From: Nostoc sp. UHCC 0302
GTDB lineage: Bacteria; Cyanobacteriota; Cyanobacteriia; Cyanobacteriales; Nostocaceae
Assembly: GCF_038096175.1 (NCBI RefSeq)
Contig: NZ_CP151099.1
Location: 126,501-190,500 of the forward strand
DNA: 64,000 nucleotides
Reading direction: 5' to 3'
The notes under the pieces are model-generated. The model did no database searches, had not been told where the DNA came from, and saw only the letters and a program-made list of their open reading frames with translations. Shown one piece after another: positions 16,136 through 20,907 of the stretch. The stretch's first letter is position 1, and every line of letters begins with the position of its first letter. Position numbers and translations under genes: made by a program.

Positions 16136-16154
16136 TGACAGCTTGTCTTTTGAC
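16136..16154. promoter_or_regulatory. operator-like 19-mer upstream of petJ (copy 1)
   Basis: TGACAGCTTGTCTTTTGAC, containing the palindrome GACAGCTTGTC (16137-16147; GACA-N3-TGTC, that is GAC-N5-GTC). The identical 19 bp recurs at 18746-18764 upstream of the TonB-dependent receptor. Here the palindrome ends 80 bp before the petJ ATG and overlaps a possible -35 (TTGACA, 16135-16140). Cytochrome c6 genes are repressed by copper through the BlaI-type regulator PetR in Synechocystis, whose site I recall as GAC-N5-GTC. The equivalence is an inference. Confidence 0.6.
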
Positions 16155-16227
16155 GAAGACTATTCCTCAATTGACAATTGTGGAGGAAATTGCACCGAAT
16201 GAGCCTTGGTTGCAGAGGAAACACGAA

Positions 16228-16563
16228 ATGAAAAAGATTATTTCAGTAATACTGTTAGGCATAGCAATCTTCACTTTTGCCTTCAGTACTCCGGCTTTCG
16301 CAGCAGATACTGCTAGTGGAGCCAAAGTATTTAGTGCAAATTGTGCTTCCTGTCATGCAGGTGGTAAAAATCTGGTTCAAGCGCCAAAGAACCTGAAGAA
16401 GGAAGCTTTGGAAAAGTATGGTTTGTATTCAGCGGAGGCAATTATCTCTCAAGTGACAAAAGGTAAAAATGCCATGCCTGCCTTTGGTGGTCGCTTAAAA
16501 CCTAACCAGATTGAAGATGTAGCTGCTTATGTCCTTGAACAAGCAGACAAGGATTGGAAGTAA
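16228..16563 (+). CDS. petJ: cytochrome c6 (PetJ)
   Basis: Soluble lumenal c-type cytochrome that carries electrons from cytochrome b6f to photosystem I (or to terminal oxidase) when plastocyanin is unavailable. The start is the ATG at 16228, chosen because it has AGAGGA eight bases upstream and opens a normal signal peptide ([20 protein letters not shown]...AFA). An upstream in-frame extension to 16135 would spoil this. The mature protein is about 86 residues: haem site CASCH (C14, C17, H18) and axial Met58 in [10 protein letters not shown], with the typical C-terminus [12 protein letters not shown]. Upstream is an operator-like palindrome; copper repression is expected from family knowledge. 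Confidence 0.97.
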
Positions 16564-16574
16564 ACTAACGTCCA

Positions 16575-16749
16575 ATACCAATTCGTAATTCGTGAGGTAG
16601 TACGGTCTTGGGGTCTCCCCAAGTGGAGTAACTGCCGTTAGCGTAGCGTTAGCGACGCAGGAGCGTCACCCGGAGGGTAATTAAGAGGCGTCAGATTTTA
16701 TCTGGGTTTCCCTTTTTAAATCTGTAGCCTTCTTTGAAAGAATTGGTAT
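16575..16749. repeat. MITE-like element with perfect ATACCAATTC termini
   Basis: About 175 bp bounded by ATACCAATTC (16575-16584) and its exact complement GAATTGGTAT (16740-16749). The right half (from TAATTAAGAGGC onward, with ATCTGGGTTTCC) resembles the smaller element at 21278-21359. The central part contains a different insert (GTTAGCGTAGCGTTAGCGAC) typical of Nostoc dispersed repeats. It is non-coding. Confidence 0.75.
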
Positions 16750-16770
16750 AACTTCAACAATTAATAATTT

Positions 16771-16789
16771 GCGGGGCTTTTTGTCCCGC
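16771..16789 (+). terminator. hairpin after petJ
   Basis: GCGGG-gctttttgt-CCCGC followed by TAATTTTATT. A compact GC stem between petJ and the TPR gene, acceptable as an intrinsic terminator for petJ, although it lies 208 bp downstream because a repeat element sits between them. Confidence 0.5.
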
Positions 16790-16922
16790 TAATTTTATTG
16801 CTGCCAAAATTGTCAAATAGGATGCTGATACCAACTTTTGATTTGGAATGTTGGATTAAAAGTCTTTAGCAAAAGACTGTTCTAGGAATATCAAACAACA
16901 CTAACAATTCAGGTTTGGTATT

Positions 16923-17846
16923 ATGGCTGATTTGTGGCGATTTTTTCTCAGTTTAATTATTGCTTTTCCTTTGACTTTTTTGCCAACTTCTGCACACTCA
17001 TCTCCCATGTTCATCACACCAATAACAGCGGGTGATTTCTTCAAGTTGGGTGTAGATAAAATGCAGCGTGGTGATTACCAGGAAGCAATAGAGAACTTTA
17101 ACCAAACCATTCAACTGCAAAAAGATTTTGCTATGGCTTACAGCGATCGCTGTCTTGCTTATCTCCAATTACAAGATTACCACCAAGCGATCGCAGACTG
17201 TACTCAAGCAATAAATTTTGCACCAGCTCACTTTGAGGCATATTTAAATCGCGGACTAGCACACTACAGAAAAGGGAATTATTCAGCTGCCATTGCTGAT
17301 TATAATCAAGCCCTTACACTTAAACCCTATGATTTCCGCACTTACTACAACCGAGGAGTAGCCCTAACTGAGCAAGGAAATTATTTAGAAGCTATTGTTG
17401 ATTACAACAGGGCATTAACTCAAATTCCCCAAGCAAGCAATTTATTGCTGGCAGATATCTATAATGACCGAGGTTTAGCGCGGTTGTTATTACAAGATAA
17501 CCAAACAGCTATGCTCGACTTTAATCTGGCAATTCGTTTCAATGCTCAAGATTATCGAGTTTACTTTAATCGTGGTTGTGCTTACGGACGAAACGGGGAC
17601 AACTTTGGCGCTGTAAATGATTTTTCTGAAGTCATAAGACTTAACCCCAGTAATGCCCTAGCTTATTTTAATCGCGGCATTGCTCACTATAACTTAGGGT
17701 ATCATCAAGGTGCGATCGCGGATCTTAAAAAGGCATCTGAGTACTTTGAATATGAAGGAAAAAAGATAGCTTACGAAAAAACTTTGGATTTACTTAAGGC
17801 TTTACGACGACAAATTTCTTTAGCAATGGAAATTGCTCTTTTATAA
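16923..17846 (+). CDS. tetratricopeptide-repeat protein, exported or membrane-anchored
   Basis: Protein of 307 residues with an N-terminal hydrophobic segment (WRFFLSLIIAFPLTFLPTSA) that looks like a signal peptide or anchor. The rest is about seven consecutive 34-residue TPR units: GDYQEAIENFNQTIQLQKDF, QDYHQAIADCTQAINFAPAH, GNYSAAIADYNQALTLKPYD, GNYLEAIVDYNRALTQIPQ, DNQTAMLDFNLAIRFNAQD, DNFGAVNDFSEVIRLNPSN, YHQGAIADLKKASEYFE. TPR arrays are protein-binding scaffolds, and nothing here identifies the partner. Cyanobacteria carry many such proteins linked to photosystem assembly or trafficking. It stands alone between petJ and a convergent Uma2 gene. Confidence 0.88.
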   Translation: MADLWRFFLSLIIAFPLTFLPTSAHSSPMFITPITAGDFFKLGVDKMQRGDYQEAIENFNQTIQLQKDFAMAYSDRCLAYLQLQDYHQAIADCTQAINFAPAHFEAYLNRGLAHYRKGNYSAAIADYNQALTLKPYDFRTYYNRGVALTEQGNYLEAIVDYNRALTQIPQASNLLLADIYNDRGLARLLLQDNQTAMLDFNLAIRFNAQDYRVYFNRGCAYGRNGDNFGAVNDFSEVIRLNPSNALAYFNRGIAHYNLGYHQGAIADLKKASEYFEYEGKKIAYEKTLDLLKALRRQISLAMEIALL

Positions 17847-17900
17847 CACCGTGAGGGTTGTAACAGCTAATACTGTTTAGCTTGATTACACCGATTGCGA

Positions 17901-18527
17901 CTATGCAGGGTATCCACCAGCTTGAAAAATCTGTTCGGCGGTTAAATTTAACTCTGGGAAAGTAGACGAGACGATGTGAGTGCTACCTCGAAACTGGCTG
18001 ACTTGATATTCTCCGTCAATTAAGGTGTAAATCGAGATAGTTGGCTGTTTGGGGTTGCCAATAAATCGCCTACCGCCTAAAGCAGCATAGTCTACAATCC
18101 AGTATTCTGGGATGCCTACAGCCTCATAATCAGCAGCTTTTTTTAAATAATCATCACGCCAATTGCTACTCACTACCTCAATTACTAAGGGTATTGATTC
18201 CGCTTGGCTTACAGTAGATTCTTTTTTCCACAGAGGTTCATTTACCAAATTAGGCAGATTTAATATCAACACATCTGGTGAGTAAGCCGATTCACTTTCA
18301 AGTGGTTTTACTAGTACTGTTTTCGGAATGCCATAGGGTAGGCTGATGCGATTATATTCTAGAATAAATTTCTGGACTAAAAATACGATAATCTGTTCAT
18401 GGTCGCCTGTGGGTTGCGGCATCTCGACTATTACTCCATCATGCAATTCATAATGTTTTCCTGTGTTGTCAGGATATTTAGCAATGAATTCATCGAATGT
18501 AAATAGTTTACGTAAGCTTTGAATCAT
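17901..18527 (-). CDS. Uma2-family (DUF820) PD-(D/E)XK protein
   Basis: Member (208 residues) of the Uma2/DUF820 family, a restriction-endonuclease-like fold greatly expanded in cyanobacteria and of unproven role. Signature positions are visible: LFTFDEFIAKY start, YELHDGVIVEM, the acidic SPDVLIL, PLVIEVVSSNW with the catalytic-type E, then the conserved DYLKKAADYEAVGIPEYWIVD, and the C-terminal EQIFQAGG. The active-site pattern D...E-x-V appears intact. A second family member lies at 22651. No partner gene is evident and it is convergent with the TPR gene. Confidence 0.9.
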   Translation of the reverse strand: MIQSLRKLFTFDEFIAKYPDNTGKHYELHDGVIVEMPQPTGDHEQIIVFLVQKFILEYNRISLPYGIPKTVLVKPLESESAYSPDVLILNLPNLVNEPLWKKESTVSQAESIPLVIEVVSSNWRDDYLKKAADYEAVGIPEYWIVDYAALGGRRFIGNPKQPTISIYTLIDGEYQVSQFRGSTHIVSSTFPELNLTAEQIFQAGGYPA

Positions 18528-18745
18528 AACTTATTGCTTTCTATTCTGTTTGGGAAGCGTTTATTTTTCTCAATAATAACGTAATTCGTAATTTCTCCGT
18601 AGCCAGCCAATTTGATAATTAAGTATTCTACTTTATTCATCTTTTTTAAGATTTGGAAAGAAGCCTAAACCGCAACCAAATTAATTTTCACAGAGCAGTT
18701 ATCTGCTTTACATGAGTAAGAGTCTCATCTGAATCTATGGAAATA

Positions 18746-18764
18746 TGACAGCTTGTCTTTTGAC
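18746..18764. promoter_or_regulatory. operator-like 19-mer upstream of the TonB-dependent receptor (copy 2)
   Basis: Identical 19 bp to the petJ upstream element, with palindrome GACAGCTTGTC at 18747-18757. It lies 71 bp before the preferred receptor start and just before TATAAT (18772-18777), a possible -10. Occupation here would overlap the promoter. The surrounding sequence is otherwise unlike that upstream of petJ, so the match is not part of a long duplication. Confidence 0.6.
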
Positions 18765-18828
18765 ACAATTTTATAATTGCAGCAACAATACCACCTAGTG
18801 ACTGTTTTGACCGGGTGTGAGTGAAATC

Positions 18829-20907
18829 GTGAAAAAGTATTTTTTATTGCTGCCAATTGCTTTACCAACTTTACTAATAGCATTTCCTGCTTTTGCTGAT
18901 GATATTGAAATTAAGCAGAAAAACATTGATAACTCAACCACAGCAACTTTAAATATTCCTAGTCTTAGTGAAATTCAGTTACCTACTACTAATGCTGAAT
19001 TATTAACTCAAAAATCTGCACCTGATGAACAGCCAGAAGCAGAGCCAACTTCTAGCGATGATGTAGATATTTCTATAGAAGCGATCGGAGAAAAAGATAG
19101 TCTCCCTCAGTCTACACCGACTTATGTAATTGAAAAAGAAGAAATTCAAAAACAGGGTGCTAATAGCCTAGCTGATATTTTAAAAAAAATGCCTGGGTTT
19201 GCTATTAATGATGCAGGTCATGGTGCAGATATTCACACAGGTACATATTACAGGGGAGCTTCAATTAATCAGTCTGTATTTCTGATTAATGGCAGACCAA
19301 TTAATAATAATGTCAATACTTATCATGGTGGAACTGATTTAAATAGCATTCCTATAGAGGCTATTGAACGAGTGGAATTATATAGCGGTACAGCCTCCGC
19401 TTTATATGGTTCTTCAGCCTTTGGAGGAGTTGTTAATATTATTACCAAGCAAGGTTATGGAAAACCTCAATTAACTGGTAGTGTGGAATTTGGCTCGTTG
19501 AATTTAAATAATCAACAAGTTACCTATGGAGGTTCATCGGGTGCTGTTAAGTATAACTTTAGCTTTGAAAGGTTCTTTACAGATAACCGTTATCGTGTGC
19601 CTGTAGGTGCGGCAAATCGCGATTCTGAAGGGTTTTTGTCGAATGCAGACACAGCTACAAGCACTTACTTTGGAAGTATTGCCGCGGATTTAGATAATAA
19701 AAACTCTTTAAATTTAGATGTTACTGCGCTTAGTAGTCGTCGTGGTTTAATTTATTTTGGGTTTCCTCTCCAGCAAGACCGATTAGACCACGATGGTTTG
19801 AACATTGGTTTATCTTGGAAAACTCGCCTGGGTAATGGAGAAAGTTCCAATTTGACAACCTCACTTGGTTATAACCGAGATTATTTCAGCACCTATGACC
19901 CTACAGGAAATTTTTACCGTACAGGTTCTTTAGATTCAGAACAACTGACAGCTAGAGTTGATAATGAATGGCAAGTTACTGCTAATAATAAATTACGTTG
20001 GGGATTAGATTTAAAAAACAGCGATATCAACGGTGATGTTTTGAGTACCAATCCAGAAAGGATTGCTGAAAACGAAACTGAAAATAAGAGTGTATTAAAT
20101 ACAGCTTTATTCGCTGTCAATACTTGGAATATTACTGATAATTTTCTTGTAGATTTAGGGTTAAGACAAAGCTTTGATGGTCAGTTTGGCAGTTATTTTA
20201 ACCCAAGTGTTGGATTTCGTTATGCCGTCACACCAAAAGTTGCTGTGCGTGGAAGTTGGGCGGGGGGACAACGCAATCCTGGGTTGGATCAATTGTATGT
20301 TTATGATACGGTTCATGGTTGGGAACCAAACCCTGATTTAAAACCAGAAAATGGCTCAACTTGGACTGCGGGAGTAGATATCAATTTTACTGATAATTTG
20401 ATTGGACAGTTTACTTACTTCGGCAGTAGTATCGATGACCGCCTGGGAGTAATCGCAGGAAGATGGGAAAACATTGGATTAGTAGATACCAATGGTTTAG
20501 AAGCCGCATTGCAATTTAAAATTGCTTCTGGCTGGTCAACTTTCCTTAACTATACTTATACAGATGCCCAAATAAAAACAGGTTCGGAGGAAGGTTTACA
20601 GTTAGGTTTGATTCCTTACTCTGTACTTCAAACTGGGGTAGGTTATGAAAATTCAGGATGGCAGGCTAATTTGTATGTTACCTATAACAGTGGTTCCCGC
20701 AGAGCGTTCTTTAATAATCCTGGTGATAAGACTACAGATTTTTCTCCATCTTTCGTAAATTTAGATTTCAGCGGTCGGATACCTGTGACCAGCAATATAG
20801 GACTGACGGTTTACTTAGAGAATTTACTAGACGAGCAATACGAACGAGTTAATCGGATTTATAGCCCAGGATTTACCTTCCGTCTGGGTTTAAGCGCAAC
20901 TTTGTAA
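18829..20907 (+). CDS. TonB-dependent outer-membrane receptor
   Basis: Energy-coupled outer-membrane importer of about 692 residues. I prefer the GTG at 18829 because it opens a clean signal peptide (MKKYFLLLPIALPTLLIAFPAFA); a GTG four codons upstream is possible. After an acidic linker comes the plug domain (TYVIEKEEIQKQGANSLADILKKMPG, LINGRPINNN, IERVELYSGTASALYGSSAFGGVVNIITK), then a 22-strand-type barrel ending in the aromatic terminus FTFRLGLSATL. The AMIN domain found on many cyanobacterial siderophore receptors is absent. The substrate is unknown. The shared element with petJ points to metal, possibly copper, limitation as the trigger. A vitamin B12 or siderophore role cannot be excluded. 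Confidence 0.92.
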   Translation: MKKYFLLLPIALPTLLIAFPAFADDIEIKQKNIDNSTTATLNIPSLSEIQLPTTNAELLTQKSAPDEQPEAEPTSSDDVDISIEAIGEKDSLPQSTPTYVIEKEEIQKQGANSLADILKKMPGFAINDAGHGADIHTGTYYRGASINQSVFLINGRPINNNVNTYHGGTDLNSIPIEAIERVELYSGTASALYGSSAFGGVVNIITKQGYGKPQLTGSVEFGSLNLNNQQVTYGGSSGAVKYNFSFERFFTDNRYRVPVGAANRDSEGFLSNADTATSTYFGSIAADLDNKNSLNLDVTALSSRRGLIYFGFPLQQDRLDHDGLNIGLSWKTRLGNGESSNLTTSLGYNRDYFSTYDPTGNFYRTGSLDSEQLTARVDNEWQVTANNKLRWGLDLKNSDINGDVLSTNPERIAENETENKSVLNTALFAVNTWNITDNFLVDLGLRQSFDGQFGSYFNPSVGFRYAVTPKVAVRGSWAGGQRNPGLDQLYVYDTVHGWEPNPDLKPENGSTWTAGVDINFTDNLIGQFTYFGSSIDDRLGVIAGRWENIGLVDTNGLEAALQFKIASGWSTFLNYTYTDAQIKTGSEEGLQLGLIPYSVLQTGVGYENSGWQANLYVTYNSGSRRAFFNNPGDKTTDFSPSFVNLDFSGRIPVTSNIGLTVYLENLLDEQYERVNRIYSPGFTFRLGLSATL

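Follow-up and report, generated by a model that had tools for sequence, protein, structure and literature searches.

Why should a gene for an outer-membrane receptor carry the same promoter element as the gene for cytochrome c6? This question is raised by a stretch of 64,000 nucleotides from Nostoc sp. UHCC 0302 (contig NZ_CP151099.1, positions 126,501 to 190,500; here called the window), in which the 19-mer TGACAGCTTGTCTTTTGAC occurs exactly at 16136-16154, before petJ, and at 18746-18764, before a gene for a TonB-dependent receptor, both times on the forward strand. How cyanobacteria bring copper across their outer membrane is hardly known. A 2025 review names passive porins, and the word TonB does not occur in its text (PMC12292863). 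Comparative sequence analysis places the receptor, with high confidence, in the copper-starvation regulon of PetR, a regulator of the BlaI family. This regulatory link is well supported, while the substrate of the receptor is inferred. In heterocyst-forming cyanobacteria a conserved switch would put a receptor presumed to serve vitamin B12 under the copper control of cytochrome c6, together with a reductase-like protein of the inner membrane, and this points to a programme of copper uptake that has been overlooked.

The element in the window and among relatives

An earlier note on this DNA had reported the two identical copies and an inverted repeat of the form GAC-N5-GTC at their core, and both observations were borne out by the window search. 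The 19-mer consists of two parts, the palindrome GACA-N3-TGTC and TTTTGAC, the latter holding a -35 hexamer; we take GAC-N5-GTC to be the form published for the PetR site at Synechocystis petJ and petE. The distances of 71-80 bp to the start codons given in that note fit only roughly, as the end of the element lies 73 bp from the petJ start (ATG 16228) and 64 bp from the receptor start (GTG 18829, with an alternative in-frame GTG at 18817). Beyond the two copies no match with up to three mismatches was found in the window, where the chance expectation is 0.03 and two copies appeared in 0 of 100 shuffles. Across the whole genome (9,587,056 bases, 9 contigs) the 19-mer occurs exactly twice and at one further place with two mismatches (C1:3721682), and the reversed-pattern control gave 0 matches. 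With just three places at up to two mismatches the element is not a dispersed repeat with many copies, a possibility that had been raised before. Among looser patterns, the degenerate form at three mismatches is noise (103 matches versus 154 in the reversed control). GAC-N5-GTCTTTTGAC is found at 3 places only in this genome, its reversed control matches 2, and the pattern alone is therefore not specific within one genome.

Conservation upstream of orthologues was found for both genes. Among the best 80 of 112 named Nostocales loci with the receptor, 79 carry GAC-N5-GTC-N4-GAC at 77-174 bp before the match start, L115 being without it. A petJ gene is nearby in 44 of these 80 loci and is preceded in 42 by GAC-N5-GTC-N-TTTGAC, at -90 to -95 with one exception at -190 (L099 and L102 lack it). 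At the other 36 loci, where petJ was not detected, the N-TTTGAC form is kept before the receptor in 34 cases, with a variant in L104 and none in L115. This agrees with the proposal of the note that a common element marks a common regulon.

The third place in the Nostoc genome, TGACAACTCGTCTTTTGAC, lies about 170 bp before a gene for a membrane protein of 423 amino acids with the domains DsbD_2 (PF13386) and ferric-reductase-like (PF01794), here called the DsbD_2 gene. On the opposite side, at a distance of about 80 bp, an M28 peptidase gene begins, yet it is the DsbD_2 gene that the element accompanies in relatives. In 25 of 30 DsbD_2 loci, the own genome included, the strict element is found within 700 bp, and 3 more have TTAC for TGAC; the distance is 430-650 bp in a few loci. 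The reading frame overlaps the next one, p233, which codes for a secreted His/Cys protein of 233 amino acids without a match in Pfam or NCBIfam. Its residues His63, His76 and Cys110 are invariant (34 aligned sequences, 31 distinct), and His63 follows directly after an apparent signal peptide (A-S-A/H), presumably in a similar manner as in the copper-binding CopC. A search by sequence for a solved structural relative of the DsbD_2/ferric-reductase protein found none. In two genomes, G020 (L279) and G044 (L288), the DsbD_2 gene is separated from the element by a gene for a secreted His-rich protein of about 160 amino acids without a Pfam match.

In 60 genomes of the family GAC-N5-GTCTTTTGAC has 165 sites, compared to 37 for the reversed pattern, and is present in 58 of the 60. 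We examined 153 of these sites (150 listed and 3 of the Nostoc genome, with 12 left out): the DsbD_2 gene follows 41 of them and the receptor 36. Of the other 76, 50 were fetched and fall before petJ (28), p233 (4), a gene for a GLTT-repeat protein (2) and an MbnP gene (1), with 15 left unassigned. The remaining 26 are the petJ site of the window or lie on stretches fetched earlier, and 11 of them were assigned, some by sequence reading only (petJ 4, p233 2, GLTT 2, MbnP 1, AMIN-domain receptor 2). Altogether 123 of the 153 sites precede the same few gene families, while the other 30 do not exceed the chance level taken from the reversed control. The receptor is present in 48 family genomes, and 41 of them have the activator form of the element before it (2 of the 48 were left out).

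The regulator and the geometry of its promoters

In Synechocystis sp. PCC 6803 the PetRP system (Garcia-Canas et al. 2021) pairs a BlaI-type regulator with a BlaR1-type protease. PetR activates petJ and represses petE (PMC7896320, PMC13421787), in a way that is unknown according to a commentary (PMC7896320), and the published regulon comprises petE, petJ and slr0601-slr0602 (PMC7896320, PMC12382314), the latter described as 'small protein' and 'unknown function'. The type of regulator and, putatively, that of the protease and the opposite control of petE and petJ would be shared by the system proposed here, but its regulon would add a TonB-dependent receptor, the DsbD_2/ferric-reductase-like protein and, in relatives, MbnP. 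A link between PetR and a TonB-dependent receptor was not found in the literature searched, of which the primary PetR paper was not part. The earlier note had petJ repressed by copper through a BlaI-type regulator. The regulator very probably stands, while a simple copper repressor does not agree with PetR as a reported activator of petJ (PMC7896320).

The Nostoc genome has a single BlaI-family protein (PF03965, 104.7 bits). Directly 3' of its gene a PetP-like, BlaR1/M48-like protein of 281 amino acids is encoded, with weak matches to PF05569 (22.0 bits, cut-off 31) and PF01435 (23.2 bits, cut-off 20.3). A PetR orthologue is present in 60/60 family genomes and in 53 of 146 sampled genomes of the phylum, if at least 52% identity (our cut) is demanded and the weaker matches in other classes are excluded. 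Outside the family we compared the 500 bp before petJ-like genes of 31 PetR-positive (47 promoters) and 15 PetR-negative genomes (23 promoters). As petJ-like genes we took the listed matches above about 110 bits and the best match of G146, G153 and G175, excluding weaker paralogues; ten genomes of other classes with weak cytochrome c matches and G185, which has PetR but no petJ, were dropped. The element precedes petJ in 24/31 PetR-positive but 0/15 PetR-negative genomes (Fisher p 3.3e-7, relatedness ignored), and none of the 15 has even GAC-N5-GTC there. The DsbD_2 gene shows the element within 900 bp in 4 of 6 PetR-positive and 0 of 3 PetR-negative genomes fetched, where that of G084 is the petJ promoter further upstream and that of G064 is 676 bp away. 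Within one genus G091, with PetR, has it before the DsbD_2 gene and G139, without PetR, does not. The receptor itself (E <= 1e-100) occurs in 23 of the 146 genomes, all 23 of them PetR-positive, and the element is kept before 3/3 receptors outside the family. In G064 the genes petR, petJ and that of the receptor are neighbours within 4 kb, and in G084 petR, petJ and the DsbD_2 gene are neighbours. Taken with its conservation, this contrast makes GACA-N3-TGTC very probably the operator of PetR, in line with the BlaI-type regulator that the note had proposed.

A second PetR-like BlaI gene lies near the element in L270, L278 (G036), L272 (G059) and L273 (G043), where either petJ or a DUF2231 gene is found nearby. 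These copies are 59-63% identical to PetR, that of G043 being a 54% fragment, and are perhaps a duplicated or mobile PetR module.

The position of the element relative to the predicted promoter boxes may explain its effect. TTGACN starts 13 bases after the first base of the palindrome, and the best -10 match has a spacer of 17 at petJ (mean of 3.2 matches out of 6 over 42 distinct sequences), 18 at the receptor (mean 3.4 over 74) and 17 at the DsbD_2 gene (mean 3.9 over 27; commonest TAAAGT). Since these spacers are 17-18, TTTTGAC is predicted to carry the -35 hexamer, with the palindrome centred near -43. At petE, GAC-N5-GTC is found in 30/30 loci, the own one included, 28 of them as GACA-N3-TGTC, but it is followed by AT or GT and in 0/30 by N2-TTGAC. 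In the Nostoc genome (L215) the petE palindrome is at -75. The best -10 match of petE (TAAAAT, mean 4.2 of 6) is 4-5 bases closer to the palindrome, which would therefore cover the -35 region. This different position could explain the opposite effects of PetR and would offer a sequence-level answer to the question left open by the commentary (PMC7896320), while the position before petJ and the receptor predicts activation on copper starvation. The element is absent before the two other petJ-like genes read in the Nostoc genome (C1:4402911 and C1:8336315); petE (C1:8335634) adjoins the latter.

We consider it very likely that a promoter module with a PetR operator, common to petJ, the receptor and the DsbD_2 gene, explains the 19-mer. 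Site, conservation, co-occurrence with PetR and the two promoter arrangements were computed, whereas the dual action of PetR and the part of PetP are taken from the literature; binding, direction and mechanism in Nostoc sp. UHCC 0302 are, like the boxes, predictions. The operator would be followed, after 2 bp, by a -35 hexamer of the sigma-70 type (TTGACN). When copper is scarce, the PetP protease would be inactive and PetR would persist, binding with its centre near -43 and activating the petJ, receptor and DsbD_2 promoters, while at petE it would bind a bare palindrome over the -35 region and repress. As a separate and less certain proposal, the receptor would serve TonB-driven uptake of a copper chelate in copper starvation, and the DsbD_2/ferric-reductase protein would handle the metal at the inner membrane.

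Several observations weigh against such a uniform scheme. The petJ element is missing in the PetR-positive genomes G067, G091, G155, G167 and G171, and G099 and G160 have petJ only with the variant TTTTGAT. The DsbD_2 gene lacks the element in the PetR-positive genomes G013, G034, G157 and G167 as well as in the loci L151 and L174, also of PetR-positive genomes. The receptor palindromes of G030, G038 and G048 are without TTTTGAC, G019 has another form and G057 none. The -10 boxes are weak (on average 3.2-3.9 matching bases out of 6), and at petE another candidate -10 lies closer still. In G030, G038, G048, G093 and G081 (L444, L445, L446, L480, L482) the receptor palindromes are followed by ATA, AAA or similar, and the regulation of the receptor may be inverted or re-wired there.

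The element could also bind another regulator that co-occurs with PetR, or be nothing but the -35 region of a strong constitutive promoter. The general -35 consensus is TTGACA, and the binding of PetR is read from sequence; moreover, PetR presence follows phylogeny, so that the contrast between genomes with and without PetR is not independent evidence for each genome. However, the palindrome is conserved too and not TTGAC alone, petE keeps the palindrome without TTGAC, GAC-N5-GTC is absent before petJ in all 15 PetR-negative genomes, and in G036, G059 and G043 copies of the element have BlaI paralogues nearby. We regard these alternatives as highly improbable.

The receptor and its possible substrates

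The receptor has plug and beta-barrel domains (PF07715, 89.4 bits; PF00593, 130.2 bits). The positions of the features are given below.

Features of the petJ and receptor loci (positions in the window; boxes and loop locations are predicted)
Feature	Position	Strand	Basis or remark
PetR-type palindrome GACAGCTTGTC (GACA-N3-TGTC), petJ promoter	16137..16147	+	sequence, conservation, contrast of PetR-positive and PetR-negative genomes
Predicted -35 hexamer TTGACG, petJ	16150..16155	+	within TTTTGAC part of the 19-mer plus one base
Predicted -10 hexamer GACAAT, petJ	16173..16178	+	spacer 17, best over 42 distinct petJ promoters
petJ, cytochrome c6	16228..16563	+	NF045930 equivalog, 167.9 bits, cut-off 135
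PetR-type palindrome GACAGCTTGTC, receptor promoter	18747..18757	+	sequence; kept in orthologous loci
Predicted -35 hexamer TTGACA, receptor gene	18760..18765	+	
Predicted -10 hexamer AACAAT, receptor gene	18784..18789	+	spacer 18, best over 74 distinct promoters
TonB-dependent receptor, 692 amino acids	18829..20907	+	PF07715 and PF00593
Plug region with His131, His136 and His166	19219..19326	+	conservation in receptors
His131 codon	19219-19221	+	kept in 72/81 receptors
His136 codon	19234-19236	+	kept in 81/81 receptors
His166 codon	19324-19326	+	kept in 81/81 receptors
His321 codon, beside predicted extracellular loop	19789..19791	+	80/81; loop side inferred from strand order of the model
His496 codon (YDTVHGWEP), predicted extracellular loop	20314..20316	+	81/81 receptors

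The protein has a single Met and lacks Cys. Each of its five His is conserved in 72 or more of the 81 orthologues, and three are present in 81/81, while Met121 is kept in 68/81 and no Cys is conserved (67 receptors have none, 14 have one). The AlphaFold2 model is weak at the conserved His (mean pLDDT 70, with residues 127-147 and 160-168 below 50), and therefore we make no claim that they form one site.

A cobalamin transporter whose place in the PetR regulon is incidental would agree with the best NCBIfam match, TonB-B12 (TIGR01779), and with the best structural matches, which are BtuB (TMq 0.71). The TIGR01779 score of 156.6 bits is far under the cut-off of 599.7, however, and NF007926 is not reached either (130.5 bits, cut-off 836). 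His496 sits in an insertion that is absent from BtuB according to the profile alignment. A cobalamin riboswitch is typical, though not universal, upstream of BtuB genes; scanning the window with Rfam at gathering scores gave a tRNA only and no riboswitch of any kind.

The orthologue in Anabaena sp. PCC 7120 is apparently BtuB1 (All3310). The 7 btuB1 (all3310) primers from PMC10878165 that were compared in and just before the gene all fit the Nostoc parmelioides receptor locus (L094) in order with 0-3 mismatches, compared to 8-9 mismatches for the reversed primers; the promoter-distal primer PGFP-fw does not match (7 mismatches). Since these primers match L094, which carries the element before its receptor, the family has apparently been studied as BtuB1. 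There it is annotated and studied as a cobalamin receptor, and copper regulation is not reported in the literature consulted. The authors of PMC10878165 retain BtuB1 in the role of a constitutive receptor for cobalamin, but the drop in cobalamin uptake of their mutant did not reach significance and cobalt starvation did not induce the gene (PMC10878165). A B12 transporter appears improbable to us.

For copper speak the regulator, which answers to copper, the MbnP genes that carry the element, and the conserved His of a receptor without Cys. In G019 (L274) the element is found at an MbnP gene (307.7 bits to TIGR04052, 'MbnP family copper-binding protein', cut-off 140) and at an AMIN-domain TonB-dependent receptor divergent from it, and it also precedes another MbnP gene in G022 (L439). 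G033 (L277) has it at an AMIN-domain receptor, with the variant CATTTGAC at a nearby gene that reads like MbnP. MbnP and the AMIN-domain receptor look like a second, separate copper-uptake-like pair in some species. We therefore favour, with some reserve and apart from the regulatory claim, the import of a copper chelate as the likeliest function of the receptor.

Other observations weigh against copper. With a ferric-reductase-like domain and the haem protein encoded by petJ, the regulon would suit iron supply as well, and providing iron for cytochrome c6 would result in the same co-regulation. The btuB1 and btuB2 mutants contained less iron and manganese as well as less copper in cobalt-replete medium (PMC10878165). 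Finally, a 2009 study by reverse transcription PCR (RT-PCR) detected all3310 transcript in nearly every medium, standard media among them (PMC2771747), so that expression would not be tightly limited to copper starvation. The RT-PCR primers labelled all3310 in Table 3 of that study have 6-10 mismatches to L094, L084, L085 and L095. One of the two labels, in PMC2771747 or PMC10878165, may be wrong, and since these primers found no match, the 2009 result may or may not concern the receptor gene.

A receptor in the PetR regulon could instead import iron or a haem source. Copper starvation swaps plastocyanin for the haem-containing cytochrome c6, so that more iron is needed, and the DsbD_2/ferric-reductase protein would then reduce iron or aid cytochrome c maturation. 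In agreement with this, petJ needs haem, PF13386 is named for cytochrome c biogenesis and accompanies the ferric-reductase-like PF01794, the PetR-negative genome G089 has a petJ paralogue adjacent to a DsbD_2 gene, and the btuB1 mutant had less iron too (PMC10878165). The MbnP genes with the element argue in the other direction. So does p233, the second protein of the operon, with its invariant His after the apparent signal peptide and its presumed likeness to CopC. Inner-membrane proteins of the FoxB and PepSY_TM type are tied to published copper receptors as well (PMC8610252, PMC12914433). Import of iron or haem seems rather unlikely to us, though less so than that of B12.

Returning to copper, we give an even chance to a broader proposal, in which PetR of Nostocales runs a whole copper-acquisition programme beyond the exchange of plastocyanin and cytochrome c6. 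It would comprise the receptor family, misnamed BtuB1 in Anabaena and importing a copper chelate by way of a site of conserved His, the DsbD_2/ferric-reductase membrane protein, a secreted copper carrier with an N-terminal His and, in some species, MbnP and a second receptor, with a single operator that activates or represses by a shift of about 4-5 bp.

Relation to characterised receptors

By sequence, a known regulator appears here with an extended regulon, whose receptor family does not match OprC or, at the cut-off, BtuB, nor, within the limits of the comparison, IacT and CrtA. The note was mistaken in taking copper import to be unassigned among cyanobacterial TonB-dependent receptors, as IacT (All4026) of Anabaena sp. 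PCC 7120 is assigned iron and copper transport (PMC4284471, PMC10878165). IacT is comparable as a cyanobacterial TonB-dependent receptor tied to both metals, but it is of a ViuA-like class (PMC2771747), and its three primers were no better than 5-6 mismatches against the receptor orthologues; the btuB2 primers did not match L094 either.

OprC/NosA of Pseudomonas is likewise a TonB-dependent copper receptor and shares its operon with a FoxB-like inner-membrane protein (PMC8610252). It differs by its CxxxM-HxM copper site, which is ruled out for the window receptor with its 0 Cys and 1 Met, and OprC first appears at rank 42 of the structural matches. CrtA of Bordetella pertussis and P. aeruginosa is a copper-chelate receptor in which neither Cys nor Met is conserved and one invariant His is required (PMC12914433). 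A conserved Cys is missing in both, but Met121 is kept in most of our receptors, in which His136, His166 and His496 are invariant. CrtA also differs in gene neighbourhood, regulator (CruR) and length (707-911 amino acids), and more than 75% of its loci encode an inner-membrane PepSY_TM protein (PMC12914433). The gene after the window receptor codes for a protein of 107 amino acids without a Pfam match, hence there is no adjacent PepSY_TM gene.

With the receptor family, the regulator, the site and the partner genes named, the question of copper entry becomes testable with the existing Anabaena insertion mutant AFS-I-btuB1. As a further observation, a small GLTT-repeat protein follows the element in four genomes (L272, L284, L413, L433), and its C-terminus is rich in Met and His in L272 and L284.

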